The position numbers were made by a program, and so were the translations under genes. Shown here piece after piece: positions 35,998-54,524 of a stretch of DNA of 64,000 nucleotides (positions within the stretch are counted from its first letter, which is position 1; the number at the start of each line of letters is the position of its first letter). Under the pieces are notes generated by a model. That model ran no database searches, was not told the DNA's origin, and worked only from the letters and a program-made list of their open reading frames with translations. Source of the stretch: Methyloversatilis universalis EHg5 (GTDB lineage Bacteria; Pseudomonadota; Gammaproteobacteria; Burkholderiales; Rhodocyclaceae); the NCBI RefSeq assembly GCF_000378945.1, contig NZ_KB900539.1, positions 3,298,122-3,362,121 on the forward strand, in the 5' to 3' direction.

Positions 35998-36379
35998 GGT
36001 TCAGACCTGTTGAGGTTAAAGGTCGGCAGTTTACCCAGCCACAGGCGGTCTGGACGCTCTTGCAGGACAAACAGCGCATCCGGCGGCCCGGACGCGGCGC
36101 CGGCCACGGGCATTTTCCACGCGCACCGGCGGGCGGATCCGGGCAAGCCGAGGGCGTGTGGACGGGCGGTGGCCGCGATACGGAAAGGGCCGGCCGCGCC
36201 AACTGCGCGCCGCGGCGCGGGGCACGCCCGCAGGCCATGTCGTAAGGATATGCAGGGCGGTCGCCGGACGGCTTTACCGATGAGACAGATGACTCGCACT
36301 GCAACATGCAGGCGGGGCGCAAACCTTGTATCTTGCGACGCGTTTTCCCGTCCCATAAACCGTGCCGGAATCTTCGCTA
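35998..36379. promoter_or_regulatory. Divergent intergenic region upstream of the second mxa operon
   Basis: About 380 bp between the minus-strand FKBP gene and plus-strand mxaR copy 2; it must hold promoters for both. A TTGCGA...17 nt...TAAACC pair near 36336-36364 is a weak promoter candidate for mxaR. No known operator motif was recognised. Confidence 0.35.
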
Positions 36380-37399
36380 ATGCTCTCCCAGGAAGCCCTC
36401 CAGGACTGGCGCAGCCTCGCGCTGCGCGTGGAAGAAGAAGTGCGCCGCGCCGTCGTCGGTCAGGACGACACGCTGCGCCTGATCAATGTCGCGCTGTTCG
36501 CCCGCGGCCACGTGCTGCTCGAAGGCGATGTCGGCGTCGGCAAGACCACGGTGCTGCGCGCCTTCGCGCGCGCCATCGGCGGTGACTTCGAGCGCGTCGA
36601 AGGCACGGTGGACCTGATGCCGAATGACCTCGTCTATCACACCTATGTAGACAGCGAGGGCAAGCCGCGCATCGAGCCGGGCCCGCTGCTGCGCCATGGC
36701 GAGCGGCTCACCACCTTCTTCTTCAACGAAATCAACCGCGCCCGCCCGCAGGTGCAGTCGCTGCTGCTGCGCGCGATGGCCGAACGCACGCTGTCGGCCT
36801 TCAACCGCGAATACAGCTTCCCGCACATGACTGTGTTCGCCGACCGCAACCGGGTGGAGAAGGAAGAAACCTTCGAACTGGCTTCCGCCGCGCGCGACCG
36901 CTTCATGTTCGAACTGCGCATGCTGACGCCGTCGGACGACGACACCCGTCGCGCGCTGGTGTTCGACCCGCGCTTCCACGACACCGACGCGCTGATCGAC
37001 ACCGTGACGCCGGGCGTGGTCGACTGGTTGCAGATGAACACCATAGGCGCCGCCATCCAGCGCGCGGTCAGCGCGTCGGACGCGCTGCAGCGCTACGCGA
37101 TGGACATCTGGGCCGCCACCAGCAATCCGTTGAAATACGGCCTGCAGATCGAGGGCGTCGACATGTCGCGCCTCATCCTCGCTGGCGCCAGCCCGCGCGG
37201 CATGGGCATGCTGATGCGCGCCGCACGCGTGGTGGCCTGGTTCAGCGGCCGCGATTACCTGACGCCGGAAGACATCCGCGCGGTACTGCCCTCGACGCTG
37301 GTGCATCGCGTGTTCTTCACGCCGGTCTACGAACTGCGCCGCGCCGAACTGGCCGACGCGCTGATCGAACAGATGCTGGAGCGGGTCGCCACGCCCTGA
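36380..37399 (+). CDS. mxaR: MoxR-family AAA+ ATPase, MxaR-like (copy 2)
   Basis: 339 residues from the ATG at 36380. A GTG at 36362 is open, but MLSQEALQDWRSLALRVEEE aligns end to end with copy 1 (MSSQEQLQDWRDAALRIENE). Walker A GDVGVGKT and the variant Walker B FFFNEINR are identical to copy 1, including the Asn where most MoxR proteins have Asp. The copies diverge mainly after residue 180. It heads the operon that runs into xoxF, so this copy is the better candidate for methanol dehydrogenase activation. Confidence 0.88.
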   Translation: MLSQEALQDWRSLALRVEEEVRRAVVGQDDTLRLINVALFARGHVLLEGDVGVGKTTVLRAFARAIGGDFERVEGTVDLMPNDLVYHTYVDSEGKPRIEPGPLLRHGERLTTFFFNEINRARPQVQSLLLRAMAERTLSAFNREYSFPHMTVFADRNRVEKEETFELASAARDRFMFELRMLTPSDDDTRRALVFDPRFHDTDALIDTVTPGVVDWLQMNTIGAAIQRAVSASDALQRYAMDIWAATSNPLKYGLQIEGVDMSRLILAGASPRGMGMLMRAARVVAWFSGRDYLTPEDIRAVLPSTLVHRVFFTPVYELRRAELADALIEQMLERVATP

Positions 37400-37413
37400 A
37401 CACGGCTGCCGCC

Positions 37414-38265
37414 ATGAGCTTCCAGCGCGATTTCCATTACCGCATTCCGATGCGGGTCGGCGGCCAGCGCCCGGGCGCCCACCGCAGCTCGACCACCGGC
37501 AGCGGCCAGGAATTCATTGCCCACCAGACGCTGTTCGACCGGCCGGACCCGCGCCGGCTCGACCTGCGCGCCAGCATCCGCGACCCGGAAGGCCGCTGGC
37601 TGGTGCGGGTGAACCGGCAGCGCGCCGGCATTCCGGTCTATCTGGTGGCCGACGTGTCGGCCTCGATGGCTTTCGGTTCGTCCGACACCAAGCTGGCGCG
37701 GCTGGCGCAGTTCGCGCTGTCGCTGGGCGATTCGGTGTTCCGCACCGGCGACGCGCTGGGCATGCTGGGCTACGACGGCAGGGAGCGCACCGACCTCATG
37801 CTGGCGCCCATGCATTCGCGCGGTGCCGGCGTCATGATGTCCGAAGCGCTCGGCCGCGCCCGCGCCGACCAGGCCTCGACCGACGGTGTGCTTGAAGCGT
37901 GTGCCCGCATCGCCGGCAAGCAGGCGCTGGTGTTCCTCGCCTCAGACTTCCACGCGCCGCTGGCCCAGACCTCGGCCGCACTCGATCTGCTGTCGCACGC
38001 CTATGTCGTGCCCATGGTGATCTGGGACGAAGCCGAACCGCGCGCCCCCGATGGCGAAGGTCTGCTCGCGCTGCGCGACATCGAAACCGGCCGCCGGCGC
38101 GGCCTGTGGCTGCGGCCGCAGATCCGCCGCCGGTGGGAGGACGCGTTCGCGCAGCGGCGCGAAGCGCTGGACAAGATGTTTTCGGCGCGCGGTACCCGCC
38201 CCTTCTACATGACCGGCCGCTTCGATGCCGACGCGCTGTCACGCTATTTTTTCGAGGCTGTCTGA
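37414..38265 (+). CDS. mxaS: DUF58 protein, MxaS-like (copy 2)
   Basis: 283 residues. DPRRLDLRASIRD, VADVSASMAFG and FLASDFHAPLAQTSAALDLLSHAYVVPMVIWDE parallel copy 1. Soluble, no signal peptide. It begins 14 nt after mxaR and is followed 1 nt after its stop by mxaA. Expected to work with the MoxR ATPase. Confidence 0.82.
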   Translation: MSFQRDFHYRIPMRVGGQRPGAHRSSTTGSGQEFIAHQTLFDRPDPRRLDLRASIRDPEGRWLVRVNRQRAGIPVYLVADVSASMAFGSSDTKLARLAQFALSLGDSVFRTGDALGMLGYDGRERTDLMLAPMHSRGAGVMMSEALGRARADQASTDGVLEACARIAGKQALVFLASDFHAPLAQTSAALDLLSHAYVVPMVIWDEAEPRAPDGEGLLALRDIETGRRRGLWLRPQIRRRWEDAFAQRREALDKMFSARGTRPFYMTGRFDADALSRYFFEAV

Positions 38266-38266
38266 C

Positions 38267-39319
38267 ATGAAACCGCTGCCCGCACTCCGGCTTCTGGGCA
38301 CGCTGCTGGCGCTGGCCTGCACGCTGCCGGCCGGCGCCCAGGACACCAGACCGGCCGATGCCGCCCCCGCTCCAGTCGCTGATGCACCGCCCCAGCCCAC
38401 CGGCCCGGTCATTCCGCCGCAGACCGATCTGAGCAAGCCGGCCGGCTCCAGCGACGAAGCGCCCGCCGCCGCGCCAGCCACACCGGACATGCCCGTCGCG
38501 CCGGCCACACCGGTGCTGGCGGCGATCACGCCGGAGGTGATCGCACCGCGCCCGTTCGGCTACGTGATCGGCGACATGGTGGAGCAGCGCATCGCCCTCG
38601 ACCATGATGGCGCACCGATCGAACCGGCCACGCTGCCGCCGCTCGAACGCGCCGGCAACTGGTTCGAGCGGCGCGACGCACGCATCGAACAGGACGCCTC
38701 CGGCCGCCGCTGGCTGGTGATCGATTACCAGATCATCAATGTGCCGGACGAACTGCGTGCGCTCGAACTGCCGGCGCTCGACCTCGAACTGACCGATGGC
38801 AAGCGCCGGCTGCAGACCACGCCGCTGCCGGTAACCGTGGCGCCGCTGACACCTGAAGTGGTGCTGGCGCGCGCCGGGCTGGAAGCGATGCGCCCTGACC
38901 TGCCGGCGCCGCACATCGACCCCGCACCGTTCGAGCGCGGCCTGCACGCGGCGCTGAGCGCCGGCGCCGCGCTGGTCGGCCTGTGGCTGCTGCTGGCGCT
39001 GCTGCGCCAGCTCGCCGCCCGCCGCCGCCTGCCTTTCTCACGCGCCCAGCGCGAGCTCAGCCGGCTGGACAGCGGCTCGCCCGACAGCTGGCGACGGCTG
39101 CACCGCGCGCTGGACGACACCGCCGGTCAGGTGGTGCGCGACGGCAATCTGTCTGTGCTGCTGGCGCGCGCGCCCTGGCTGGCGCCACTCGAAGCCGATC
39201 TGCGCCGCTTCTTCGAAGCCTCGCAGGTTCGTTTCTTCGCCGATCGCCCGGCCGGCGACGTGGATCCGCGCAGCCTCTGCGCCCGCGCCGCAAAGCTGGA
39301 ACGCCGGGCGCTTGCATGA
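38267..39319 (+). CDS. mxaA: MxaA-like maturation protein (copy 2)
   Basis: 350 residues. Signal peptide MKPLPALRLLGTLLALACTLPAGA, a Pro/Ala/Thr-rich linker (about 27-85), a beta domain ending in RRWLVIDYQIINVPDEL, one membrane helix near 230-255 and a cytoplasmic helical tail with FSRAQRELSRL. Same layout as copy 1. Likely part of the metal or cofactor loading complex for the dehydrogenase. Confidence 0.78.
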   Translation: MKPLPALRLLGTLLALACTLPAGAQDTRPADAAPAPVADAPPQPTGPVIPPQTDLSKPAGSSDEAPAAAPATPDMPVAPATPVLAAITPEVIAPRPFGYVIGDMVEQRIALDHDGAPIEPATLPPLERAGNWFERRDARIEQDASGRRWLVIDYQIINVPDELRALELPALDLELTDGKRRLQTTPLPVTVAPLTPEVVLARAGLEAMRPDLPAPHIDPAPFERGLHAALSAGAALVGLWLLLALLRQLAARRRLPFSRAQRELSRLDSGSPDSWRRLHRALDDTAGQVVRDGNLSVLLARAPWLAPLEADLRRFFEASQVRFFADRPAGDVDPRSLCARAAKLERRALA

Positions 39320-39401
39320 AAAGGGCCCCCACGCTCACTGCGTTCGCTGCTCCCCGAGGGGGCTGCACTCGCCCTTGGGACGGTCCGGCGGAGGTCGAGA
39401 C
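39320..39401. repeat. Palindromic intergenic repeat inside the mxa operon
   Basis: An 82-bp insert absent from copy 1. It contains CCCCCACGCTCACTGCG followed by CTCCCCGAGGGGG, a motif common as a dispersed element in betaproteobacterial intergenic regions. It breaks the stop/start overlap seen between mxaA and mxaC in copy 1. The GGAGG ribosome site of the next gene follows it. Confidence 0.7.
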
Positions 39402-40430
39402 GTGAATGGATTCACTCTGAATCTGTGGCCGGGCGCGCTTGAACTGGGTGCGCCGTGGTGGCTGCTGTTGCTGCTGCTGGCGCTGCTGCCGCTGTGGCCG
39501 CGCCGGCGCCATACGCTGGATTACGCCTGCATCGACTGGCTGCCGGCGGACCCGCTGGGCAATGCCCTGCTGCGCGCCGGCCGCATTGCTGCGGCAATTG
39601 CGATGGCGGCAGCGGTGTTCGGGCTGGCCGGGCTGGCGCAGCCGGCAACAGAGGTGCAGCGCACCGGCCGCGGCGCGGAAATCGTGATCGCGCTCGACCG
39701 CAGCCGCAGCATGGACGAGGCGCTGCTGCCCAAGGGGCGGCAGCCGTCGATCGACACCACGGCCGAAGCCAAGGGCAAGGTGGCGCGGCGCCTGCTCGCC
39801 GACTTCGCCGAACGGCGGCCGGACGACCGCTACTCGCTGCTGCTGTTCAGTTCGGCACCGATGCCGGTGGTGCCCTTCACCCAGCACGGCGACGTGGTGC
39901 AGGCCGGCATCCAGGCCGGCGGCATCGGCCGCGGACTGTCGGAAACCGACATCGGCCGCGCACTGCTGGCCGGCGCCGAACAGTTCGACCGTCGCGCCTA
40001 CTCCGGCAGCCGCATCCTGTTGCTGGTGTCGGACGGCGGCGCGCAGATCGACGAAGCGATGCGCGAAAAGATACGGCGCGCACTGCAGCGCAACCGCATC
40101 GCGGTGTACTGGATTTTCATCCGCTCGGCGCTCAGCCCCGGTCTGAACGCCGACGCCGGCGACGGCAACATTCCGGAAGTGGCGCTGAACCAGTTCCTGA
40201 AATCGGCCGGTGTGCCCTATCAGGCCTTCGAGGCGGAAGACCCGGAGGCGGTGAAGGAAGCGGTGGCCGAAGTGGATCGCCAGCAAAACCTGCCGCTGGA
40301 TTACGTTGAACGGATTCCCCGCCGGGACTTTTCCGGCTGGTGTTACGCGCTGGCCTTGCTCGCGGGCGCGGCGGCGCTGGCCTGCCGCCTGATTACGCGG
40401 CCGGCCTGGAAGGAGGAAGTGCAGTCATGA
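39402..40430 (+). CDS. mxaC: VWA-domain membrane protein, MxaC-like (copy 2)
   Basis: 342 residues from a GTG at 39402 preceded by GGAGG; the longer open frame upstream is repeat sequence. Two N-terminal helices (about 13-30, 60-80), a VWA domain with metal site DRSRSMD, shared segments PFTQHGDVVQAGI and GSRILLLVSDGGA, and a C-terminal helix near 310-330. Its stop overlaps the mxaK start (ATGA). Confidence 0.82.
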   Translation: MNGFTLNLWPGALELGAPWWLLLLLLALLPLWPRRRHTLDYACIDWLPADPLGNALLRAGRIAAAIAMAAAVFGLAGLAQPATEVQRTGRGAEIVIALDRSRSMDEALLPKGRQPSIDTTAEAKGKVARRLLADFAERRPDDRYSLLLFSSAPMPVVPFTQHGDVVQAGIQAGGIGRGLSETDIGRALLAGAEQFDRRAYSGSRILLLVSDGGAQIDEAMREKIRRALQRNRIAVYWIFIRSALSPGLNADAGDGNIPEVALNQFLKSAGVPYQAFEAEDPEAVKEAVAEVDRQQNLPLDYVERIPRRDFSGWCYALALLAGAAALACRLITRPAWKEEVQS

Positions 40431-40966
40431 GGATGCGCAGTCTGTCGTCGCTGATCGCGGCGGGCATTGCAGTCAGCATCGCGGTTGCCGGCTGGGAGGG
40501 TTACCGCCTGTCCAGCGCCCGCGATTTCAACCGCCTGGTCGACAGCGGCGTTGATGCCGCCGCCACCCAGGGCAGCCCGGAAGCGGAGTTCGCACGGGCG
40601 CTGTCGCTGGCAGCGCACAACGACTATGACGGTGCGGTGCGAGCCTACAAGGAGCTGTCGCGCAATACCGACGGCGCGCTGCTGCAGGCGGTGCTGTACA
40701 ACCTCGGCAACCTGCATCTGCGCGAGGCGCTGCAGTTCGGGCCGGAAAGCATCGGCAAATCGCTGCCGCTGGCCGAACTGTCCAAAACCAGCTATCGCGA
40801 ACTGCTGCGCCTGAATCCGCAGCACTGGGACGCCAAGTACAACCTGGAGCGGGCGCTGCGGCTGGCGCCCGAACGGGAGGCCTCTGACGAGGAAGCGCCG
40901 CCGCTGCCGCAGAACAGCGAACGGGCGGTGACCACGATGAAGGCGTTCACGCTGGGCCTGCCATGA
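40427..40966 (+). CDS. mxaK: MxaK-like TPR membrane-anchored protein (copy 2)
   Basis: 179 residues from the ATG overlapping the mxaC stop, with AAGGAGGAAG just upstream. An N-terminal helix (8-25) and TPR-like repeats including YNLGNLHLREAL and KYNLERALRLAPE, closely matching copy 1. Overlaps mxaL by 4 nt. Confidence 0.78.
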   Translation: MRMRSLSSLIAAGIAVSIAVAGWEGYRLSSARDFNRLVDSGVDAAATQGSPEAEFARALSLAAHNDYDGAVRAYKELSRNTDGALLQAVLYNLGNLHLREALQFGPESIGKSLPLAELSKTSYRELLRLNPQHWDAKYNLERALRLAPEREASDEEAPPLPQNSERAVTTMKAFTLGLP

Positions 40967-41940
40967 TCGCGACCACGCGCCAGCTGCTGGCCCGGGCACG
41001 CAGCCCGCACTCGCGTCCGCTGGCCATCGCGGTCGCGCTGTTCGCACTCGCCGCGGTGCTGCCGCCGCTGCCGCTGCCCGGCCGCAGCTATACCCACATG
41101 ATCGTGCTCGACATCACCCAGAGCATGAACACGCTGGACTATGAACTGGATGGCAAGCCGGTCGACCGGCTGACCTACGCCAAGCACAGTCTGGGTCAGG
41201 CGCTGCGCAGCCTGCCCTGCGGCTCCAGCGTCGGCTGGGGCGTGTTTTCGGAATACCGGCTGCTGGCGCTGATGACGCCGGTCGAGGTGTGCAGCAACTA
41301 CCATGAGCTGCTGGCTACGCTGTCCAACATCGACGGTCAGATGTCCTGGGCCGGCGCCAGCGAAGTGTCCAAGGGGCTGTTTTCGTCGATCCGTGCGCTG
41401 AAGGATCTCGACCCGAAACCTTCGCTCATCTTCGTCACCGACGGACACGAGGCGCCGCCGCTGCACCCAAAACTGCGGCCGTCCTTTGACGGAGAACCGG
41501 GTGTAGTGAAGGGCCTCATCGTCGGCACCGGTGGGCCAACCCTCAGCCCCATCCCGAAGTTCGATCCGGACGGCCGGCCGCTCGGCGTGTGGCGGGCGGA
41601 CGAGGTGGCACAGATCGACACCGCCACCCGCGGCCGTGCCGGCTCGTCCGGCAACAGCGAAGCCATGGTCGATGAAAGCGGCAACCAGATGGCGCAGGTG
41701 CAGAGCGCGGGCACCGAACACCTGTCCAGCCTCAAATCGGTCCATCTGCGCGACCTCGCTTCGCAGACCGGCATGAGCTACCACACGCTGGCCGATGCCG
41801 AAGGTCTGGCCAGCGCCATGACCGACGCTGATTTCGCCCGCACCCAGTCGGTACCGACCCGGGTGGGCTGGCTGCCTGCGCTGCTGGGCGTGCTCGCGCT
41901 CGCCTGGGCCTTCCGGCCGGATCACCTGCGCCGCCGCTGA
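40963..41940 (+). CDS. mxaL: VWA-domain membrane protein, MxaL-like (copy 2)
   Basis: 325 residues: helix at about 20-35, VWA domain with DITQSMN, the PCGSSVGWGVF and VEVCSNYHELL segments shared with copy 1, and a C-terminal helix. Compared with copy 1 it carries a short insert with TRGRAGSSGNSEA near residue 225. Last gene of the maturation operon, 219 bp upstream of xoxF1. Confidence 0.82.
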   Translation: MIATTRQLLARARSPHSRPLAIAVALFALAAVLPPLPLPGRSYTHMIVLDITQSMNTLDYELDGKPVDRLTYAKHSLGQALRSLPCGSSVGWGVFSEYRLLALMTPVEVCSNYHELLATLSNIDGQMSWAGASEVSKGLFSSIRALKDLDPKPSLIFVTDGHEAPPLHPKLRPSFDGEPGVVKGLIVGTGGPTLSPIPKFDPDGRPLGVWRADEVAQIDTATRGRAGSSGNSEAMVDESGNQMAQVQSAGTEHLSSLKSVHLRDLASQTGMSYHTLADAEGLASAMTDADFARTQSVPTRVGWLPALLGVLALAWAFRPDHLRRR

Positions 41941-42159
41941 GCCCCTCCCGCCAGCGGGCGCCCGGCCCGGTCCGGGATGCACTCCCGAAATCTCAGTGAA
42001 GTCATCCCGACATCAGGGCATCCGGCGCCCGGAACCGGGGATTCCCTCCCCTGCGTTGTATAAGTCCATAACCCGCACAAAGCCTGTTGCTTATGGGCTC
42101 TGCGGGCAGGTGGCCGGCGTGCCTGCGCCGGTCCGTCCGACGCAAAAGAGGAGAACACC
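41941..42159. promoter_or_regulatory. Region upstream of xoxF1
   Basis: Contains a gapped inverted repeat CCATAA (42066) / TTATGG (42091) and a TTGTATAAG segment. These could be operator or promoter parts but match nothing I can name. AGAGGAGA lies 8 nt before the xoxF1 ATG. Confidence 0.35.
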
Positions 42160-43959
42160 ATGTCCGCTCGAAAAACACTTCCACTCTGGATCGCAGCACT
42201 CGCACTGCCCGGCGCAGCGGTCGCCAACGCCGATCTGGCGAAACTGATCAAGGATCCGAAGAACTGGGCCATGCAGGCCGGCAACTTCGAGAACCAGCGC
42301 TACAGCACGCTGAACCAGATCAACAAGTCGAACGTGAAGAACATGAAGGTGGCCTGGACCTTCTCGACCGGCGTGCTGCGCGGTCACGAGGGCGGCCCGC
42401 TGGTGATCGGCGGCATGCTGTTCGTGCATACGCCCTTCCCCAACAAGGTGTTCGCGATCGATCTCGAAACCCAGAAGATCAAGTGGAAGTACGAACCGAA
42501 GCAGGATCCGACCGTGATTCCGGTCATGTGCTGCGACACGGTGAACCGCGGCCTGGCTTACGCCGAAGGCAAGATCCTGCTGCAGCAGGCGGATACGGTG
42601 CTGGTCGCGCTGGACGCCAAGACCGGCAAGAAGCTGTGGGACGTGAAGAACGGCGACCCGAAGATCGGTGAAACCAACACCCAGGCGCCGCACGTGTTCA
42701 AGGACAAGGTGATCACCGGCATTTCCGGCGGCGAATTCGGCGTGCGCGGCCGCGTGACCGCCTATGACCTGAACACCGGCAAGATGGTGTGGAAGGGCTA
42801 CTCGACCGGCCCCGACGCCGAAATGCTGATGGATCCGGACAAGACCATGACCTGGACCAACGGCAAGATGGCGCCGGTGGGCAAGGATTCGTCACTCAAG
42901 TCCTGGCAGGGCGACCAGTGGAAGATCGGCGGCGGCTCGACCTGGGGCTGGTATTCCTACGACCCGCAGGAAAACCTGATGTATTACGGTTCGGGCAACC
43001 CCTCGACCTGGAACCCGTCGCAGCGTCCGGGCGACAACAAGTGGTCCATGACCCTGTGGGCACGTGATGTCGACAACGGCAAGGTCCGCTGGGTCTACCA
43101 GATGACCCCGCACGACGAGTGGGATTTCGACGGGGTGAATGAAATCATCCTTGCCGACGTCGACGTGAAGGGCAAGAAACGCAAGGTGGCGGTGCATTTC
43201 GACCGTAACGGCTTCGCCTACACGCTGGATCGCGTGACCGGCGAACTGCTGGTGGCCGAGAAATTCGACCCCAAGGTGAACTGGGCAACCCATGTCGACA
43301 TGAACACCGGCCGTCCGCAGGTCGTGGCCAAGTATTCGACTCGCCAGAACGGCGAGGACGTGAATACGAAGGGCATCTGCCCGGCCGCACTCGGGTCCAA
43401 GGATCAGCAACCGGCCTCGTTCAACCCGAAAAATGGCCTGTTCTACGTGCCGACCAACCATGTCTGCATGGACTACGAGCCGTTCCGCGTCGAATACACC
43501 GCTGGCCAGCCGTACGTCGGCGCAACCCTGTCGATGTTCCCGGCCCCGGGCAGCCACGGCGGCATGGGCAACTTCATCACCTGGGACGCAGGCAAGGGCA
43601 AGATCGTCCAGTCCAAGCCGGAGAAGTTCTCGGTGTGGTCGGGATCACTGGTCACTGCCGGGGGCATCGCCTGCTACGGCACGCTTGAGGGCTACCTCAA
43701 GTGCGTGGACGCCGACGACATCAACAAGGAACTGTTCAAGTTCAAGACCCCATCCGGCATCATCGGCAACGTAACTACCTGGGAATTCAAGGGCAAGCAG
43801 TACATCGGCCTGCTGTCGGGCATCGGAGGCTGGGCCGGCATCGGTCTGGCGGCCGGGCTTGAGAAGTCCACCGACGGCCTGGGTGCGGTGGGTGGTTACG
43901 CCGAACTGGCCAACTACACCGAACTGGGTGGCGTGATGACGGTGTTCGCCTTGCCCTGA
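42160..43959 (+). CDS. xoxF: XoxF-type PQQ methanol dehydrogenase (copy 1)
   Basis: 599 residues, periplasmic, signal peptide cut near AVA-NAD. An eight-bladed PQQ propeller: the vicinal disulfide Cys124-Cys125 (MCCDTVNRG) and tryptophan-docking repeats such as [20 protein letters not shown]. The active site [11 protein letters not shown] has catalytic Asp322 and an extra Asp324; this second aspartate marks lanthanide-dependent XoxF enzymes and is absent in calcium MxaF. Oxidises methanol to formaldehyde or formate and passes electrons to a cytochrome c (xoxG, not in the window). Followed by a strong terminator. Very similar to copy 2 but with more GC-ending codons. Confidence 0.92.
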
Positions 43960-44009
43960 GCGACCGTTTCACCCCGCAGGACACCTGCCCCGGCACACGG
44001 GGCAGGATG

Positions 44010-44044
44010 ACGGCGCCCGGTATCTTCCGGAGCGCCGTTTTTTT
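44010..44044 (+). terminator. Rho-independent terminator after xoxF1
   Basis: Stem ACGGCGC (44010-44016) with GCGCCGT (44032-44038), extended inside by CCGG/CCGG, followed by a run of seven T. Separates xoxF1 from xoxF2 transcription. Confidence 0.9.
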
Positions 44045-44413
44045 CGTCCGGACTGCCTCATTTTTAGGCAAAACCAAGTGTTCCGTTCCGGAACGCTGGG
44101 GCGGTACACCCTGCCCGGCAGCGCGTTGCGCGCTGCAACATCTGGCGATTTCATCCATGTTGCAGCGCGCCACTAACGGCCCCTTCAACCGCCTCAAACG
44201 CAATAAAGATAGCCAGAGAGCGAAAAATCAAAAACACGTCAAGTTTAAAATTTTAAGAAGATGAAGGGAAAACTTCCCGCTGTTCAAAAATCGTGTGCTA
44301 TATCTTCATTACCTCGACGCCCGGGGGCACTTATGGGCGTTGTAGGGCAACAGCGGCCGGAGCCTTCGACATGGGGTGTCCGGTCACATTTTGGTAGCAA
44401 TGAGGAGGAGCCT
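44045..44413 (+). promoter_or_regulatory. xoxF2 upstream region, AT-rich
   Basis: About 370 bp, distinctly AT-rich around 44200-44310, with A-tracts (GCGAAAAATCAAAAAC) and a TATATC near 44298 that may be a -10 element. No supported gene. An inverted repeat at 44128-44170 lies upstream. GAGGAGGAG precedes the ATG. The length and composition suggest strong, regulated expression of xoxF2. Confidence 0.55.
44128..44170. promoter_or_regulatory. Perfect 14-bp inverted repeat upstream of xoxF2
   Basis: GCGCGCTGCAACAT (44128-44141) and its exact reverse complement (44157-44170), 15 nt apart. Too far upstream and without T-run to be a terminator for xoxF1; the spacing suits a dimeric regulator or an RNA hairpin. 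It matches no motif I can name. Confidence 0.6.
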
Positions 44414-46216
44414 ATGTCTAGCAAGATGAAACAACTGCCCCTGTGGGTCGCCGCACTGGCCATCCCGGGCACCGCTCTGGCCAATGCCGACGTCGCCAAG
44501 CTGATCAAAGACCCGAAAAATTGGGCAATGCAAGCCGGTAACTTCGAAAACCAGCGCTACAGCAACCTGAACCAGATCAACAAGAGCAACGTCAAGAGCC
44601 TCAAGGTGGCCTGGACCTTCTCGACCGGCGTGCTGCGCGGTCACGAAGGCGGCCCGCTGGTCGTCGGTGACACCCTGTTCGTGCACTCCCCCTTCCCCAA
44701 CAAGGTTTTCGCGATCGATCTCGAAACCCAGAAGATCAAGTGGAAGTACGAGCCGAAGCAGGATCCGTCCGTGATCCCGGTGATGTGCTGCGACACGGTG
44801 AACCGTGGTCTGGCCTACGCCGAAGGCAAGGTGTTCCTGCAACAGGCTGACACCGTGCTGGTCGCGCTCGACGCCAAGTCCGGCAAGAAGCTGTGGGACG
44901 TCAAGAACGGCGACCCGAAGGTTGGCGGCACCAACACGAACGCCCCGCACGTGTTCAAGGATAAGGTTATCACCGGTATTTCCGGCGGTGAATTCGGTAT
45001 CCGCGGCTACGTCGCTGCCTACGACATCAACACCGGCAAGCAGGTGTGGAAGGGCTACTCGACTGGCCCCGACGCCGAAATGCTGATGGATCCGGAAAAG
45101 ACCGTCACCTGGACGAACGGCAAGCTGGCTCCGGTCGGCAAGGATTCCTCGCTGAAGACCTGGCAAGGCGACCAGTGGAAGATCGGCGGCGGCACGACCT
45201 GGGGCTGGTACTCGTACGACCCGCAGGAAAACCTGATGTACTACGGTTCGGGCAACCCCTCGACCTGGAACCCGTCGCAGCGTCCGGGCGACAACAAGTG
45301 GTCCATGACCCTGTGGGCACGTGATGTCGACAGCGGCAAGGTGCGCTGGGTCTACCAGATGACCCCGCACGACGAGTGGGACTTCGACGGCATCAACGAA
45401 GTGATCCTGGCTGACGTCGACGTCAAGGGCAAGAAGCGCAAGGTCGCGGTTCACTTTGACCGCAACGGCTTCGGCTACACGCTGGACCGCGTGACCGGCG
45501 AACTGCTGGTGGCTGAAAAGTACGATCCGAAGGTGAACTGGGCGACCCACGTCGACATGAACACCGGTCGTCCGCAGGTCGTGGCCAAGTACTCGACCCG
45601 CCAGAACGGTGAAGACGTGAACAGCAAGGGCATCTGCCCGGCCGCTCTGGGTTCGAAGGACCAGCAGCCGGCAGCGTTCAACGCCAAGAACGGTCTGTTC
45701 TACGTGCCGACCAACCACGTCTGCATGGACTACGAGCCGTTCCGCGTCGAATACACCGCTGGTCAGCCGTACGTCGGCGCAACCCTGTCGATGTTCCCGG
45801 CCCCGGGCAGCCACGGCGGCATGGGCAACTTCATCACCTGGGACGCAGGCAAGGGCAAGATCGTCCAGTCCAAGCCGGAGAAGTTCTCGGTGTGGTCGGG
45901 CGCTCTGGTCACCGCCGGTGGCATCGCCTGCTACGGCACGCTCGAGGGTTACCTCAAGTGCGTCGATGCTGACGACATCAACAAGGAACTGTTCAAGTTC
46001 AAGACCCCGTCCGGCATCATCGGCAACGTGAACACCTGGGAACACAAGGGCAAGCAGTACATCGGCGTGCTGTCGGGTATTGGTGGCTGGGCCGGTATCG
46101 GTCTGGCAGCCGGTCTCGAAAAGCCGACCGACGGTCTGGGTGCCGTGGGTGGTTACGCCGAGCTGGCCAACTACACCGAACTCGGTGGCGTGATGACGGT
46201 GTTCGCACTGCCGTAA
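44414..46216 (+). CDS. xoxF: XoxF-type PQQ methanol dehydrogenase (copy 2)
   Basis: 600 residues from the ATG at 44414 (GAGGAGGAG ribosome site; the frame is open 50 codons further upstream but unlike the family). Signal peptide cut near ALA-NAD. Vicinal disulfide Cys125-Cys126 and active site [11 protein letters not shown] with Asp323 and the lanthanide-type Asp325. It differs from copy 1 by scattered conservative changes. Codons are enriched in GGT, GCT and GTC types relative to copy 1, as in highly expressed genes. Own upstream region and own terminator, so it is likely the main, separately regulated enzyme. Confidence 0.92.
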
Positions 46217-46232
46217 TCGGCGGTCGGACAAG

Positions 46233-46253
46233 AAGGGCGCTAGAAGCGCCCTT
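46233..46253 (+). terminator. Hairpin after xoxF2
   Basis: AAGGGCGCT (46233-46241) pairs with AGCGCCCTT (46245-46253) across a 3-nt loop. Only short T content follows; it may stabilise the xoxF2 mRNA 3' end or assist the next terminator. Confidence 0.6.
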
Positions 46254-46267
46254 CCGCAGCACACTGA

Positions 46268-46303
46268 ACGGGCACTTCGCGGTAACGCAGGTGCCCGTTT
46301 TTT
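46268..46303 (+). terminator. Rho-independent terminator between xoxF2 and xoxJ
   Basis: ACGGGCAC (46268-46275) pairs with GTGCCCGT (46291-46298), followed by six T. xoxJ therefore probably depends on partial readthrough or its own promoter. Confidence 0.88.
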
Positions 46304-46456
46304 CATCCTCCAGCACACCTCGGGAAAGCGACACTTTCGCGATTTTCTCAAAACAAAATCACTGTTCCCGGTGTCAGCCTGTCGGCTCGGGATGCAGCCT
46401 GCGCGCGCTTCCCGCTACAACAACACGAGCCCTGCCACCGGAGGAGAAACCCCAAG

Positions 46457-47332
46457 ATGAAGCTTCGACTGTCCGCTGCCGTACTCGGCCTCGCCGCCAC
46501 CTTCGGCCTGCCGTCGGCCCACGCCCAGGAAAGCGTGACCGGCGACGACAAGGTACTGCGCGTCTGCGCCGACCCGAACAACATGCCGCTCTCGAACGAA
46601 AAGGGCGAAGGCTACGAAAACAAGATCGCCGAACTGCTGGCCAAGGATCTCGGCTACAAGCTGGAGTACGCTTTCTTTCCGCACCGCATGGGCTTCGTGC
46701 GGATGACGCTGAAGGCCAAGCACCCGGAAATTCCAGGCAAGTTCCGCTGTGATCTCATCGTCGGCGTACCGGTGGGTTTCGACCTCGGCGCGACGATCAA
46801 GCCCTACTACCGCTCCACTTATGCGATGGTGTTCAGACAGGGCCGCGGCTTCGACAGCGTGAAAACCCCGGACGACCTGCTCAAGCTGCCGCCGGAAAAG
46901 CTGTCCAAGATCCGCTTCGGCGTGTTCCAGCAAACACCCCCGGTCGACTGGCTGCTGCGCAACAAGCTGTTCGACCAGGCCATTTCCTATCAGCGCCAGT
47001 CCGGCGACCCGGGCGCCTATCCGGGCGAAATCGTCGAGAAGGATCTGGTCGGCGACAAGCTGGACATCGCGATGGCCTGGGGGCCGATCGCCGGTTACTT
47101 CAGCAAGAACTCGGGCGCCCGGGATCTGGTGACCGTCGCCTTCCCGCCGGAGAACGAGATCAAGTTTGACTACGCGATCACGATGGCGGTCCGCTTCGGC
47201 GAAAAGGACTGGAAGAACAAGATCGACGAAACCGTGCAGCGCAATCTGCCGGCGATCGAAGGCATCCTGAAGTCCTACGGCGTACCGCTGGTCAGCGAAG
47301 CACAGGCCAGTCACACCGCTGCCGACCGCTGA
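46457..47332 (+). CDS. xoxJ: XoxJ, periplasmic binding-fold partner of XoxF
   Basis: 291 residues, signal peptide 1-23 (ending AHA-Q). A type 2 periplasmic binding-protein fold of the MxaJ/XoxJ family: VLRVCADPNNMPLSNEKGEGYENKIAEL at the N-terminus, YAFFPHRMGFVRMTLK, CDLIVGVPVGFDLG, and the C-terminal DIAMAWGPIAGYF. MxaJ/XoxJ proteins are thought to help activate or dock the dehydrogenase. A GGAGGAG site lies 8 nt before the ATG. The next gene follows after 10 nt. Confidence 0.9.
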   Translation: MKLRLSAAVLGLAATFGLPSAHAQESVTGDDKVLRVCADPNNMPLSNEKGEGYENKIAELLAKDLGYKLEYAFFPHRMGFVRMTLKAKHPEIPGKFRCDLIVGVPVGFDLGATIKPYYRSTYAMVFRQGRGFDSVKTPDDLLKLPPEKLSKIRFGVFQQTPPVDWLLRNKLFDQAISYQRQSGDPGAYPGEIVEKDLVGDKLDIAMAWGPIAGYFSKNSGARDLVTVAFPPENEIKFDYAITMAVRFGEKDWKNKIDETVQRNLPAIEGILKSYGVPLVSEAQASHTAADR

Positions 47333-47342
47333 ATCACCGGCC

Positions 47343-48386
47343 ATGCGCAAAGCCCAGCCCCTGCTCTGCGCCACGCTTGCCTGTGTGCTGCCGCTGCCGG
47401 CCAGCGCGCTGGGCGAGCGTGACATCGCCGCGCTGATCAGCCTGCGACCGAGCGTGCTCAAGGTCGAGGCCTCGGACGCGCGCGGTAATGTCGGCGTCGG
47501 CACCGGCGTGGCGGTGGCGCCCGGCGTCATCGCAACGGCCTGTCATGTGACCGCCCACGCCACCACGTTGCGAGTGGTGTCCAATGGCGAACGCATGCAG
47601 GTGAGCGGCCAGCGTGCCGAGGTCACCCGCGACCTGTGTCTGCTGGACGTGCCCGGTGCGTCGCAGGTACCGCCGGTGCCCCTGCGCGACACCCCGCTCA
47701 GGCCGGGCGAGGAGCTGGTGGCGCTGGGCTACATCCTGGGTGCGGCACCGCGGGTGAGCAACGGCACCGTGCTGCGGCTGCACGATCACGATGGTGGCAA
47801 GGTGATCCAGAGCACCACGCCCTTCACCTCGGGCGCCAGCGGCGGCGGCATGTTCGACCGCGACGGCCGCCTGGTAGGGCTGATGACATTCAAGTTCAGG
47901 GCCGGCAACGACAACCAGTTTTCAGTGCCGTCCGCCTGGATCGCCGAGGCGCTCCGGCTGCCGCCGGGCCCGGAGGTCGCGCCGCTTGCCGGCCGCGCCT
48001 TCTGGGACGCGCCGGAAGCCGGTCTGCCGCCCTTCCTGCAGACGTTGCGCATGGAAGCCGAAGGTCGCTGGCCAGATCTGGAAGCGCTGGCCCGGCGGTG
48101 GATTGCCGGCGAACCGGCCAGTGCCTCCGCCTGGCATGCGCTCGGCCGCGCCCAGGCTGGCAGCGGTCGCGGCAGCGAGGCGCTGGAGTCATTCGCGCGC
48201 GCGGACGCGCTCGAACACGACAATCCGGTCTTTCTGAGCGACCTCGCGCTGGCACACTACAGGCAGCACGATGATCAGGCTTACGCCCGCACCCGGGCAG
48301 AACTCGAACGCATCGCACCGTCCGCGCTGCCCACGCTGGATGCACGCGCCGGTGCCTGCAAACCCGATATTCCCCAACCCTGCTGA
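47343..48386 (+). CDS. Secreted trypsin-like serine protease with TPR tail
   Basis: 347 residues. Signal peptide 1-22 (ending ASA-L). A trypsin-like fold at about 25-205 with a full catalytic triad: His68 (ATACHV), Asp97 or Asp102 (TRDLCLLDV) and Ser166 (TSGASGGGM). Residues 230-330 form TPR-like helices (AWHALGRAQAG, ALAHYRQHDD). It begins 10 nt after xoxJ, so probably one transcript. The family includes periplasmic DegP-like proteases without PDZ domains. A role in XoxF processing or quality control is only inferred from position. Confidence 0.75.
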   Translation: MRKAQPLLCATLACVLPLPASALGERDIAALISLRPSVLKVEASDARGNVGVGTGVAVAPGVIATACHVTAHATTLRVVSNGERMQVSGQRAEVTRDLCLLDVPGASQVPPVPLRDTPLRPGEELVALGYILGAAPRVSNGTVLRLHDHDGGKVIQSTTPFTSGASGGGMFDRDGRLVGLMTFKFRAGNDNQFSVPSAWIAEALRLPPGPEVAPLAGRAFWDAPEAGLPPFLQTLRMEAEGRWPDLEALARRWIAGEPASASAWHALGRAQAGSGRGSEALESFARADALEHDNPVFLSDLALAHYRQHDDQAYARTRAELERIAPSALPTLDARAGACKPDIPQPC

Positions 48387-49150: not shown

Positions 49151-51247
49151 TCACTCCCGCTGCAGCACTCCCTCCCGCAGCAAGCCGGCGAACGTGACGG
49201 CCGGCTGCGGGCGGGAATACAGATAGCCCTGCATCAGGCCGCAGTGCCGGCTGCGCAGGAAGTCGCGCTGCGCCACCGTTTCCACGCCTTCCGCCACCAC
49301 GCCCAGTCCGAGCGCGTGAGCCAGCGCGAGTATCGCCTCGACGATGGACGCCCCGCTCGCATCGTCCGGCAGGTCGCGCACGAAGCTGCGATCAATCTTG
49401 AGCAGGTCGATCGGAAACTGCTTCAGCGTGGACAGCGACGAATAGCCGGTGCCGAAATCGTCGATCGACAGCATCAGTCCCAGCGACTTGAGCGCCCCCA
49501 GCGTGGTCATGGCCTGCTCCGGCTCCTGCATGACCGCGCTTTCGGTCAGTTCCACGTGCAGGTAGCGCGACGGCAGGCCGGTGCTTTCCAGCGCATAGGC
49601 AATCGAGGTGAGCAGGGAGTCGGAGCGGAAGTTGTGCGCCGACAGATTCACCGCAACCGGCACCACCGGCAGACCTTCAGCCAGCCAGGCCGCCATCTGG
49701 CGGCAGGCCTCCAGCACCACCCATTCACCGAGCGGCACGATGAGTCCGGTTTCTTCGGCCACCGGAATGAACTGCACCGGCGACACCGTGCCGCGCTGCG
49801 GATGTTCCCAGCGCAGCAGCGCCTCGGCCGACACGATGCGACCGCTGGCGGCGTCCACCTGAGGCTGGTAGTGCAGCACGAACTGCGACTGTTCCACCGC
49901 GCGCACCAGATCCTGCTCCAGCGACAGGCGTTCGACCGCCTGCAGCTGCATCGCTTCGGTGAAGAATTCGTAGGTATTGCGACCACGCTGCTTGGCGGCA
50001 TACATGGCCATGTCGGCATGGCGCAGCAGCGTTTCCGGATCTTCGCCATTGTCCGGAAACACCGCGATGCCGATCGAGGCGGTCACCGCCAGTTCGACAT
50101 GGGCCACCTGCAGCGGCGCACCCAGTTCGGCGCAGATGCGCGCAGCCACCCGGGCCGCATCGTCGACGCGCGCCAGATCGGTCAGCAGCACCGTGAACTC
50201 GTCGCCCCCCAGCCGCGCCACCACCTCTTCCGGCGCCTGGTCTTCGCGCGCCACGATGTCGGCGCTGCGGATGGAACCGACCAGCCGGCTCGCCACTTCG
50301 CGCAGTATCTGGTCGCCCAGCGTGTGGCCGAAGCTGTCGTTGATGCGCTTGAGCCGGTCCAGATCCAGGTACAGCAGCGCACAGCGCGAGCCGGTGCGCT
50401 GCGAACGCGCCAGCGTGTGGTCCAGCATTTCGCGGAACATCTGGCGGTTGGCCAGCCCGGTCAGGCTGTCGTGATAGGCCAGGAAGCGGATGCGACGTTC
50501 CGCCTGCTCGCGCTCGGTCACGTCCTGGGTCACGCCCTCGACACGCACCACGCGGCCGAACTCGTCGCGCTCCGGCACCGCGTGTTCGTGCAGCGACACG
50601 ATGATGCCGTCGCCGCGCTGCACGCGAAAGCTCATCTGATAGGGCTCGCCCGCGCGCGCGTGCTCCATCGCCTCGCGCAGGTGCTGGCGATCCGGACTGA
50701 GCACGCGAGCCAGCAGGCCGAAGGGCACGGTGTGCAGCGCCGCCGGCACCTCGCCCCACAGGTCCAGGCAGATGGCGCTGCGTTCGCAGCGGTCTTCATC
50801 GACATGCCAGACCCAGCCGCCCAGCCGCGCCACCCGCTGCGCCACCGCCAGCCGGCGCTCGGAAGACTGCAGTTCGCTTACCGTCTGCGCCGCACGCAGC
50901 GCGTAACGGATGCGATAGACCAGCAGCGTCCAGTTCAGCGGCTTGGTGACGAAGTCGGTCGCGCCATGTGCATAGGCACTGTCGATGGATGTGGTGTCGT
51001 CCATGCCGGTGAGCATGATGATGGGCAGCGTGCGGCCGTGCGGATGGGCGCGCAGCCGCCGGCACACCTCGAAGCCGTCGATACCGCCCAGGCTCACGTC
51101 CAGCAGCACCAGCGAAAACTCGTGCCGCCCGAAAAGCTCGAGCGCGCTTTCGCCGTCGGCCGCTTCCATCACCTCGAATCCGGAAGCAATCAGGGCTTCG
51201 GCCGCGAGCAGCCTGACCATCACATCATCATCAACCAGCAGTATCAC
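49151..51247 (-). CDS. Response regulator with PAS, GGDEF and EAL domains
   Basis: 698 residues. Receiver domain 1-120 with phospho-acceptor Asp50 and LTGMDD; a PAS domain about 130-255 introduced by [26 protein letters not shown] domain about 260-430 with the motif intact at 347-351 (LGGDEF); EAL domain about 440-690 with EAL at 475-477 and the [10 protein letters not shown] and K-DRSFV segments of active phosphodiesterases. It should make or break c-di-GMP under control of the hybrid kinase encoded just upstream, whose stop it overlaps by 4 nt. Confidence 0.9.
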
Positions 51248-53976
51248 GTGCGGACTCCCGGGGTCTGCGCGTCGCCGGCCAGCCGGTCGAGCGCGTCGAA
51301 AGTGTGCAGCAGAATGCCTTCCAGATCACGCTGCGCCTGTGCGTCGAAACGTGCATCGCCGGCTCGCGCCGACGTTTCCACCCCGCGGGCGCTTTCGAAG
51401 GCGCGGCGCGCACCCAGCGCGCCGCTCGAACTTTTGAGGCGGTGCGCCGCCTCGCGCAGCGCCTCGGCATCGCCCGCGGCAGACGCGTCTGTCATGCGCG
51501 CAAGACTGGCGCCCGCCTCGCGCCGGTACAGCACGGCCATGCGCGCCAGCAGATTGCTGCCCGGGCTGCGCATGCCAGGTACGCTGAACAGCTGTTTCTC
51601 GTCGATCAGCACGACGTCGGCCGAAGGCACCGGCAGCAGCGGCGACGGGTCGGCCGGGGGCCGGGCGCGCAGGCCGATCACTCTTGCCAGTTCGCGCAGC
51701 GGTATGGGTTTGGGCAGGTAGTCATCCATGCCGGCCGCAAGGCAGCGCTCACGATCGCCGCTGAGGGCGTTCGCGGTCAGCGCGACGATGGGTACCGGCG
51801 GCCGCGACAGTTCCTGCTCCAGCGTGCGGATGCGGCGGCAGGCTTCGAAACCGTCCATCACCGGCATCTGGCAGTCCATCAACACCAGATCGAAAGACTC
51901 GCGCGACACGGCGCCCAGCGCGATCAGCCCGTTCTCCGCGGTATGCACGCCGCAGCCCAGTTCGGTCAGCATGTCGAGCGCTATCTCGCGATTGACCGGG
52001 TGGTCCTCGACCAGCAACACCTTCATCCGCGGCGTGGTGGCGCGGCTGGCCGGTGTCGCCGACGGCGCCGCTGCCTCGCCGAGCATCAGCACCAGTTCGC
52101 CGCGCAGCACCGGCTTGCGTATGACGGGCAAGGTCGACAGCACCAGGTCCGGGTCAGCGAAGCCCTGCACGCAGATCAGCGGCGGCGGATTGCCGAGGCG
52201 CTCATCGAGCAGGCGCGCCAGCTCGACCGCTCCGCCGTCGCTCAGCTGCTGGGCGCACAGCACCAGTTCGAAAGGCACGCCGCACAATTCGGCCCGCATC
52301 AGCGCCGCCATCGCCTGCGTGGCATCGGTGCAGAGCGCGCTGTCGATGCCGCCTTCCGCCAGCAGCGTGACCAGGTTCTGCGCGCTGCGCACCGCCTGAT
52401 CGACCACGAGGGCACGTCGCACCGCACCCGCCTGCCAGCTGACCGGCTCGGTTTCCGCGCGCTCGAAGGTCAGGCTGAAACGGAAGTGCGACCCGTAGCC
52501 CGCCACGCTGCTGAAACCCAGGGTGCCGCCCTGAGCCGTGATCAGTTCGCGGGTGATGGCCAGACCGAGACCGGTGCCGCCGAAGCGCCGGGTGGTCGAA
52601 CTGTCGGCCTGGGAAAAGGCATCGAACACCCTGGCCGCAGCGTCCGCCACGATGCCGGTGCCGGTGTCGATCACGCCCACCTCCAGCCGGACTCGTCCGG
52701 GCGACGGTTCGGAACGCGCCACCGACACTTCGATCATCACTTCTCCGACGGCGGTGAACTTGACCGCGTTCGACACCAGATTGATCAGCACCTGGCGCAG
52801 CCGGTGCGGGTCGCCGATCAGCGCATGCGGCAGCGCCGGAGGAATGCTCAGCGCCAGTTCGATGCCCTTGCTGCGCGCCGGATCGGCGAACAGCATCACC
52901 ACATCCTCCAGCACCTGGCGCGGCTCGAACGGCACGTGTTCGAACTGCAGTTTGCCGGCCTCGATCTTGGAAAAATCGAGCACGTCGTTGATCACCCGCA
53001 GCAGGGATTCCGCCGAGCCGGAAATGCCGTCGAGATAGCGCCGCTGCCGCTCGTCCAGCGGTGTGCGTTCAAGCAGGCCGGCCATGCCGATCACGCCATT
53101 CATCGGCGTGCGGATTTCATGGCTCATATTGGCCAGGAAGCGGCTCTTCGCCTCGCTCGCCGACTCCGCCTGTTCCTTCGCCTCGCGCAGTTCGCGGGTG
53201 CGCGCCTCGACTTCGCTTTCCAGCCGGTCGCGGTGCGCGCGCAGTTCGCCGTCGCGCAGCGCGATCTCGCGCAGCATTTCGTTGAAGCGGTCGGTGAGCT
53301 GGCCGATCTCGTCATTGCCCGGTCGCGGTACGGTCACGTCGTAGCGTCGCTCGTCGACCACCGCCCGCGCCGATTCGATCAGCGCCTGCACCGGGTCGGT
53401 GATGCGGCGCTGCAGACCGGCCGACAGCCGGTAGGCGAGCAGGAATGACAGCCCGGTGAGCAGCGCATTGAGCAGCAGGATGAAAGCGGTACGCCGCCAC
53501 AGGGGCAGCAGGTCGGCCTGCAGCACGATGATGCCGAGGTGCTGGCCGTCATCCACCAGCGGACGCGCGAGCAGCAGATCGGTCGACCACGGCACGCCGA
53601 TCACCGCCAGCCGGGACAGGCCGGCCATGCCCGCAGGCGGAGGCTGCGCTGGCGGATAGGTGGCAAAGGACGAACCGTCGCTGAGCAGTATCCATGCGCG
53701 TACCACGGCCGGCACGCTGGACACCGCAGCCAGCGTCGCCGCGGCCGAGTCCGTGTCGCTGAACGCGAGTGCCGATGCGCTGTTGGCACCGATGATGCGG
53801 GCGGTCGCGTCGAGCTGGTCGATCAGGCGTTCGCGCTCGTTGTACAGGCCGCCCAGCGAATACACCGCGAAATTCAGTGCCAGCGCCGCCGCCAGGCAAA
53901 GCAGCAGGATGCGCTGCAGCTTGATGCGCAGAGGCAGGTCTACCAGTTCGGACAGGAAGCGCTCAAGCCGCCTCAT
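51244..53976 (-). CDS. Hybrid sensor histidine kinase
   Basis: 910 residues. A GTG-free frame extends to 54477, but the ATG at 53976 overlaps the YfiR-like gene by 4 nt and starts the expected N-terminus. Helix near 18-40, a periplasmic sensor (CHASE8-like) to about 150, second helix near 155-185, HAMP, then a coiled coil. HisKA contains His286 ([13 protein letters not shown]). HATPase boxes include DTGTGIV and [10 protein letters not shown] degenerate receiver follows, then a true receiver with Asp701 ([13 protein letters not shown]) and a C-terminal Hpt domain with His845 ([12 protein letters not shown]). Confidence 0.9.
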
Positions 53977-54524
53977 CGTGCCCGCCCCCCGAGGTTGCGC
54001 GCCAGCTTGAGAAGCTGCGAACTGGCGCGCAGTCCGGCCCGTTGCAGTGCCGGCTGATTGATGTCGAACTGCAGGCGGTCGCCGCTGCGCACCAGCCCTA
54101 TCATGCCGCCTTCGTCGATGAAGTCCTCGCCATCGCCCACGGTCAGCACGCCCTGCGCCGGCAGCTGTCGCAGCAGGCCGGCCAGCCGGCGCGTGCCCGG
54201 TTCGGCCAGCACGGCGACATGGCAGGCCACCGCATCGGCCGGTGCGACGTGTCGCAGCACCTGCAGGGTACGGCCGGCAAGCACGCGACCGTCGAACTGG
54301 GACAACGCGGCACCGAAGCCTTCGCCGCCGATCACGCAGATCACCAGCGGACTGCCGGCGGGCGCACCGTCCGGCCACTCCACATACTTCGCGAAATTGA
54401 ACACGAAGGCCGCCTTGAGCTGGTCCTCCGGCACGTCGGTCTGCGCAGCCGGCTGCCGCACGACCGCCAGGGCGCACAGCACGGCCAGCACCCGCAGCAG
54501 CGTCATGCCCGATCCGGAGCGCAT
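53973..54524 (-). CDS. YfiR-like periplasmic protein (DUF4154)
   Basis: 183 residues; the ATG at 54524 lies 1 nt after the TonB receptor stop. Signal peptide to about residue 28. The DUF4154/YfiR core shows [30 protein letters not shown] and [24 protein letters not shown]. YfiR in pseudomonads represses a diguanylate cyclase from the periplasm. Here it probably feeds the sensor kinase. Confidence 0.88.

Follow-up and report, generated by a model that had tools for sequence, protein, structure and literature searches.

Two adjacent genes for XoxF-type methanol dehydrogenases, here named xoxF1 and xoxF2, lie in the window analysed, a stretch of 64,000 nucleotides from Methyloversatilis universalis EHg5 (C1:3298122-3362121 of a 4.09-Mb genome, labelled G000 among the genus genomes G000 to G012). 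Both genes are intact and their products are near-identical, and the pair differs mainly in control DNA. The reading that we favour, at a probability of roughly 0.45, is a tandem duplication with division of labour, in which xoxF2 would be a lanthanide-induced core copy and xoxF1 a derived copy expressed without lanthanide. The nearest named relatives of the genome are M. thermotolerans 3t and a Methyloversatilis metagenome-assembled genome, both at 93%. The features discussed are collected in Table 1.

Two intact XoxF-type genes

The two proteins are identical at 554 of 600 aligned residues (92%) and the genes at 1593 of 1797 aligned bases (89%), with identical runs that reach 137 bp and 91 bp. 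XoxF enzymes are marked by an extra aspartate two residues past the catalytic aspartate, a position occupied by alanine in MxaF. In the window this is the eighth residue of PHDEWDFDG (D324 in XoxF1, D325 in XoxF2), and the same column holds alanine in five MxaF loci of the genus (L116, L117, L118, L099 and L108). A vicinal cysteine pair is found at 124-125 in XoxF1 and 125-126 in XoxF2. Alignment thus upholds the original prediction that both genes retain these two features. The role of the extra aspartate in XoxF is also given in PMC5784242.

Both proteins score far above the cut-off of 480 for the pyrroloquinoline quinone (PQQ)-alcohol dehydrogenase family TIGR03075, at 728.9 and 726.5 bits, and the top matches in the PDB for both are the XoxF chains 6dam and 6oc5. 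On the basis of the aspartate, the cysteine pair and the family profile, both genes are classed as XoxF-type, and lanthanide-dependent methanol oxidation is predicted for both. The 77 loci collected from outside the genus are 69–83% identical; both genes are candidate members of the XoxF5 clade.

The ratio of nonsynonymous to synonymous substitution (dN/dS) among orthologues is 0.07–0.11 across both genes, and 0.08–0.11 for xoxF1 of the window. Since these values hold for both genes, neither copy is judged to be decaying at the protein level, and both are read as under purifying selection. The prediction of two intact tandem paralogues therefore stands, and a pseudogene in either position was rejected. 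The window xoxF1 has one unique residue, S119T, at a site otherwise invariant in 14 copies. Nine positions distinguish five xoxF1 copies (that of G004 excluded) from all eight xoxF2 or single copies. A longer N-terminus for XoxF2, using the open reading frame (ORF) that begins at 44261, was also considered and rejected, because the leader length varies by 1–2 bases among relatives and a conserved AATGAGGAGGAGCCT fits the ATG at 44414.

Table 1 Features of the tandem xoxF locus, in window coordinates
Feature	Position	Strand	Remarks
Half-site CGCACTGCAACATG upstream of moxR	36295..36308	+	YGCARCATGC; common to the xoxF2 inverted repeat
mxa accessory operon (moxR, mxaS, mxaA?, mxaC, mxaK, mxaL; names presumed)	36362..41940	+	Block conserved in genus; domains AAA_3, DUF58, VWA
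xoxF1 promoter-like and 5'-hairpin module	42016..42115	+	Palindrome, TATAAG, CCATAACC, hairpin with CTTATG
xoxF1, XoxF-type methanol dehydrogenase	42160..43959	+	599 amino acids
Terminator after xoxF1	44010..44044	+	Hairpin -31.2 kcal/mol, z -5.8
Conserved xoxF2 control region and 5' leader	44104..44413	+	
Inverted repeat GTTGCGCGCTGCAACAT .. ATGTTGCAGCGCGC	44125..44173	+	xoxF2 only
Palindrome GGGAAAACTTCCC upstream of xoxF2	44266..44278	+	
Extended -10-like TGCTATAT, putative xoxF2 promoter	44296..44303	+	Not in sigma-70 consensus scan
Predicted 5' RNA hairpin, xoxF2 leader	44312..44346	+	Loop CACTTAT
xoxF2, XoxF-type methanol dehydrogenase	44414..46216	+	600 amino acids
Terminator after xoxF2	46265..46304	+	Predicted hairpin
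xoxJ-like periplasmic binding protein	46457..47332	+	TIGR03871 above cut-off

Control DNA of the two genes

The prediction that the two genes have different control regions is borne out, an inverted repeat and a conserved region of about 290 bp being present at xoxF2 only. In six pairwise comparisons among G000, G001, G012 and G004 this region is 65–83% identical. For the same genome pairs, the 219 bp upstream of xoxF1 are 44–53% identical, the spacers after either gene 33–61%, and one shuffle per pair gives 12–36%. The footprints conserved at xoxF2 begin with the inverted repeat, GTTGCGCRYTGCAACAT .. ATGTTGCAGYGCGC, and a block that reads GTCAA..TTAAAATTTT. Then come a palindrome, GGGAAAWCTTCCC, the sequence TGCTATA, which resembles an extended -10, and the leader, in which a hairpin is predicted. 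In the whole genome the first arm of the inverted repeat has a single exact occurrence. A consensus scan for sigma-70 promoters gave no sites.

The xoxF1 module is homologous to that of xoxF2, with the same CTTATG in its hairpin, but it is shorter and lacks the inverted repeat. In the window (42033-42110) the distance from palindrome to -10 is 11 bp, or about one helical turn, less than in the aligned xoxF1 modules of relatives. A profile of the module has 18 matches in 12 of the 13 genus genomes (E <= 0.05), all of them upstream of xoxF; as 17 of the 18 sequences were used to train it, the independent observations are the match in G007 and the lack of other matches. In 146 other genomes of the family the profile gave two weak partial matches (E 0.008–0.009, with the stricter filters of Infernal), and a profile search for the xoxF2-type leader over the collected loci matched the genus only. 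A string scan for [ACT]TTATG upstream of xoxF, covering 49 of the 77 relatives outside the genus, found the string in five of them. In three further regions of the genome that encode PQQ dehydrogenases, a search for hairpins of the ACTTATG type gave two matches, judged to be due to chance.

The hairpin is predicted in all 17 leaders, with z-scores of -0.6 to -3.9 and stems that differ between the paralogues. These predictions suggest an RNA element but do not prove one, and a DNA operator would look similar. A search of Rfam over 41900-46500, with E up to 5, gave nothing above gathering score; its single match, RF02241 (19.2 bits against 45), lies over the terminator.

One arm of the xoxF2 repeat recurs elsewhere. 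The half-site YGCARCATGC is found about 65 bp before moxR, with which the mxa accessory operon starts, and this holds for each of the 11 genus genomes sampled (G005 and G007 lay outside the sample). Exact matches number 8 in G000, against none in the reversed control, and 67 against 12 over 13 genomes. Besides those at xoxF2 and moxR there are six in G000, of which three lie inside script-called ORFs, one straddles an ORF start and two lie between ORFs. A clean regulon defined by the half-site alone was rejected, with three of these six inside ORFs.

These observations bear on the claim that xoxF1 is tied to the mxa operon, which they do not favour: xoxF1 has its own conserved module, and the half-site shared with the operon belongs to xoxF2. 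They also bear on one of the alternatives to our reading, namely that xoxF2 encodes the main enzyme and is highly expressed in all conditions, with xoxF1 as a minor gene read from the mxa operon. We consider this distinctly unlikely. It draws support from the stronger conservation of the xoxF2 control region, and from the 219-bp gap between mxaL and xoxF1, in which the consensus scan listed no terminator, although the same scan missed both of the hairpin terminators that follow xoxF1 and xoxF2. Folding of 41925-42000, the one part of the gap so treated, was no better than that of shuffles, and read-through from mxaL into xoxF1 is possible. The module at xoxF1 argues against this alternative, and further evidence on both sides comes from codon use and expression.

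The strong terminator predicted between the two genes is confirmed. Of the 370-bp AT-rich region said to follow it, the length is right, with about 370 bp from terminator to the xoxF2 ATG in an intergenic space of 454 bp, but the AT-rich part is limited to about 44200-44300 (36% GC). In M. thermotolerans (L009, 10644-12091) the xoxF genes are 1.45 kb apart, and recurring phrases in the translations of this gap suggest that it holds a DNA repeat array.

Codon use

Codon use was compared with that of 28 ribosomal-region genes, and ranked within a set of 185 script-called ORFs from the window and from sampled stretches. The codon adaptation index (CAI) is 0.759 for xoxF1 (82nd percentile) and 0.840 for xoxF2 (98th percentile), and the log-odds of ribosomal against background codons are -0.077 and +0.055. 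When the 125 synonymous differences between the genes are scored by log-odds, 80 favour xoxF2 and 45 xoxF1 (p 0.002); scored by CAI weights, the same differences divide 67 to 58 (p 0.47). The claim of a more optimised codon set in xoxF2 thus holds in that its usage is nearer to ribosomal usage, but not by the sign test on CAI weights. The outcome in relatives is similarly divided. Over the six genomes with a tandem pair, with the G000 reference used for all, log-odds favour xoxF2 in all six, while CAI does so in two, is tied in two and reversed in two. The log-odds would support xoxF2 as the main enzyme in all conditions, and the mixed CAI values speak against it.

The low CAI of the window xoxF1, compared with 0.813–0.849 in the five other xoxF1 genes, together with the 11 bp missing from its module, can be read as a gene on its way out in this species, with a damaged promoter and relaxing codon bias. 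This is very unlikely, given a full ORF, the dN/dS against orthologues noted above, a single unique residue at an invariant position, and a codon bias still at the 82nd percentile.

Distribution, age and gene conversion

Six of the 13 genus genomes have the tandem pair and two (G006 and G008) a single gene; in four (G007, G009, G010 and G011) the gene is cut by contig ends, and in G005 there was no xoxF-like match above 56% identity. The flanking gene order is the same at every genus locus as far as the contigs extend. Seven of the eight contig ends in the four cut genomes fall in 90-bp windows where the two copies of G004 share 98.9% identity or more. If the gene were single-copy, its interruption by contig ends in 4 of 12 genomes would be unusual, and so these four probably have a second, near-identical copy, collapsed in assembly. 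The wider set of relatives was limited to the 80 best among more than 594 stretches, three from the genus (L009-L011) and 77 from outside it. None of the 77 has two xoxF genes within the DNA covered, which for several is a short contig.

Trees were built from 15 genus sequences, one of them partial, and 8 of the 77 outgroup loci. The trees, the conversion tests and dN/dS did not include the partial copies from G007, G010 and G011, and the latter two did not include that of G009. In columns 1-570 the xoxF1 copies of G000-G003 and G012 form one group (support 90), separate from the xoxF2 of these genomes (72). Further along, the copies within a genome come together: those of G012 from column 961 on (97, 98), and the G004 pair from column 1291 (97, with the partial G009 copy). 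Shared tracts were sought by permutation, with 287 codons that have silent polymorphism. The test supports such a tract in G003 (0 of 2000), in G004 (p 0.001) and in G012 (p 0.009), and gives no significant tract in G000 (p 0.051), G001 (0.35) or G002 (0.68). Gene conversion is therefore supported in three of the six tandem genomes; in the window it is only hinted at, despite the long identical runs.

Gene conversion also figures in another reading, that of a dosage pair: two copies of one enzyme with common control, maintained by selection for total XoxF with occasional conversion. Such a pair is an unlikely but serious alternative. The same core module at both genes, the equally low dN/dS, the shared tracts and the late clustering of the copies in G012 and G004, unlike the first 570 columns, all fit it. 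On the other side are the inverted repeat at xoxF2 only, the nine positions that separate the two kinds of copy, the lack of significant conversion in G000, G001 and G002, and expression levels about 5-fold apart in strain FAM5, described below.

Silent divergence is larger for xoxF1 than for xoxF2 (0.384 against 0.238 to G001, 0.455 against 0.363 to G012, 0.529 against 0.342 to G004), and the leader of the single xoxF gene, in G006 as in G008, is of the xoxF2 type. Because both single-copy genomes have this region, xoxF2 appears to be the core copy, with xoxF1 as a faster-evolving duplicate.

Expression in M. universalis FAM5

Transcript levels are published for M. universalis FAM5 (PMC5023235, reads under GSE63822), as means of two replicates in reads per kilobase per million reads, on methanol and methylamine respectively. 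The gene named XoxF1 there (METUNv2_590217) has 2023 and 3380, XoxF2 (METUNv2_590218) has 10,962 and 16,742, and Mdh2, at 48,100 and 34,793, is above both. The tags of Ppc2 (590170) and Gk (590331) allow these names to be compared with the window. G001, G002, G004 and G012 all have xoxF between gk and ppc, transcribed toward ppc, and in G001 and G002 the distances are 114–115 kb (gk to xoxF) and 56 kb (xoxF to ppc), compared with 113 and 47 tags in FAM5. In G000 gk has moved and ppc is in place; G003 is uninformative, with gk and xoxF on different contigs. From this synteny we infer that the FAM5 tags run against xoxF transcription, so that the highly expressed FAM5 XoxF2 would be the upstream copy, equivalent to xoxF1 of the window; the inference assumes monotonic tags and conserved order. 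The upstream copy would then be 5.4-fold higher on methanol and 5.0-fold on methylamine.

This runs counter to the original prediction that xoxF2 is the highly expressed enzyme, and to the alternative in which it is so in all conditions, though in another strain and in a paper whose main text contains 'lanthan', 'cerium' and 'rare earth' 0 times each.

Proposed explanation

A tandem duplication with division of labour would account for these observations as follows. Within Methyloversatilis, xoxF together with its core promoter, 5'-hairpin leader and terminator would have been duplicated in tandem. The downstream copy, xoxF2, would retain the genus-wide control region with its upstream inverted-repeat operator, a half-site of which also stands before the mxa accessory operon, and xoxF1 would be the faster-evolving duplicate that lacks the repeat. 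Each copy would form a separate transcription unit, with a promoter and a terminator of its own. A regulator, probably lanthanide-responsive, may act at the inverted repeat and raise xoxF2 and the accessory genes when lanthanide is present, leaving xoxF1 as the copy expressed without added lanthanide; the common 5' hairpin probably stabilises both messages. The conflict between codon bias, which points to xoxF2, and laboratory RNA, which points to the upstream copy, would vanish if xoxF2 is induced by lanthanide, present in natural habitats and perhaps not in the medium.

Several points weigh against this explanation. The regulator is a postulated one, and data on lanthanide-dependent expression of Methyloversatilis xoxF were not found in the literature searched. 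The first copy of G004 nowhere joins the other xoxF1 copies, and its upstream DNA has no BLAST match to theirs, which makes a separate duplication in that lineage possible. Copies of the half-site elsewhere lie partly inside ORFs, and among the eight xoxF2-type leaders only 1 of 34 predicted hairpin pairs shows a two-sided change, with z-scores in the range given above. The orientation of the FAM5 genes comes from synteny in relatives rather than from the DNA of FAM5 itself, and the reads in that study were 36 bp long, so that near-identical stretches may blur the two counts (PMC5023235). The window xoxF1 module is 11 bp short, and FAM5 may thus not predict the window strain. Finally, codon bias and the FAM5 reading disagree, since the former marks xoxF2 as the copy of high expression.

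A more elaborate version, in which a lanthanide-responsive xoxF2 operator, the double inverted repeat, also commands the mxa accessory operon and the duplicated 5' hairpin RNA gates both messages, giving a switch between lanthanide-starved and lanthanide-replete states inside a single enzyme type and without MxaFI, is improbable as a whole.

Neighbouring genes

The gene order is FKBP (reverse strand), moxR-mxaS-mxaA?-mxaC-mxaK-mxaL, xoxF1, xoxF2, xoxJ, a trypsin-like/TPR protein and an ORF of 279 amino acids. The mxa names are presumed from gene order and from the domains found. MxaI (PF02315) was found in 7 of the 13 genus genomes and is missing from six, G000 among them, and G000 has no PQQ dehydrogenase at 40–92% identity to XoxF2; G000 therefore has no MxaF. 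The mxa accessory operon is retained in G000 and the five other genomes without MxaI, which suggests that its genes serve XoxF.

The gap between xoxF2 and xoxJ is 240 bp (46217-46456), too short for a cytochrome gene. Outside the genus the xoxF-xoxJ gap has a median of 621 bp in the 71 of 77 loci measured, and in 65 of the 71 it is 300–1100 bp, with space for xoxG. It seems that xoxG has gone from this interval; cytochrome genes elsewhere in the genome were not searched for.

Beyond the 279-residue ORF, on the opposite strand, are a response-regulator-PAS-GGDEF-EAL protein and then a hybrid histidine kinase. This region adjoining the xoxF cluster (49151-54524) also encodes a YfiR-like protein, and the kinase has CHASE8/HAMP and Hpt domains. 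The GGDEF-EAL gene is present at every genus locus that extends that far.

The lanthanide column was read by alignment to XoxF2 for 13 loci. Six of these are further PQQ dehydrogenases of G000, with aspartate in L001, L002, L006 and L007 and serine in L005 and L008; several lanthanide-type enzymes may coexist in this genome.

Comparison with known systems

To our knowledge, there are few organisms for which the binding sites that underlie the lanthanide switch have been described, and most of this work concerns the choice between MxaF and XoxF. The window genome lacks MxaFI, and its two near-identical XoxF are told apart mainly by control DNA, with sharply bounded conserved sites; the cis-elements are therefore directly testable. 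In the literature, as searched through titles and openings of abstracts with few subscription journals, nothing was found on gene conversion, an operator or a conserved leader for these xoxF genes.

The tandem pair itself is already published for FAM5 (PMC5023235), which like the window has two XoxF with adjacent tags, in the same neighbourhood as judged by tag distance to ppc2 and gk. The naming differs, in that FAM5 XoxF1 is by synteny the downstream copy, equivalent to xoxF2 here. If the orientation holds, it corrects which FAM5 gene the published expression values belong to. The parts of that paper covered give no promoter, leader or lanthanide response of the xoxF genes.

Methylorubrum extorquens AM1 (PMC3507691, PMC5784242) also has two XoxF, 87% identical in amino acids and with unequal roles, its xoxF1 being induced by light lanthanides. 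It may serve as a precedent for two similar XoxF with unequal roles (PMC5784242). In AM1, XoxF is needed for mxaF expression; the window genome differs in having no MxaI-family match or MxaF.

Among Lake Washington Proteobacteria (PMC6028718) there are several XoxF5 per genome that cluster by taxon and are read as likely within-taxon duplications, and the situation here is similar. To this the genus adds gene conversion in three of six tandem genomes, and a 5' segment that divides xoxF1 from xoxF2 across five. As in the window genome, Methylophilaceae have mxaRSACKL accessory clusters in genomes without mxaFJGI (PMC4109929); in the window the cluster lies directly upstream of xoxF, with a half-site of the xoxF2 operator before it.

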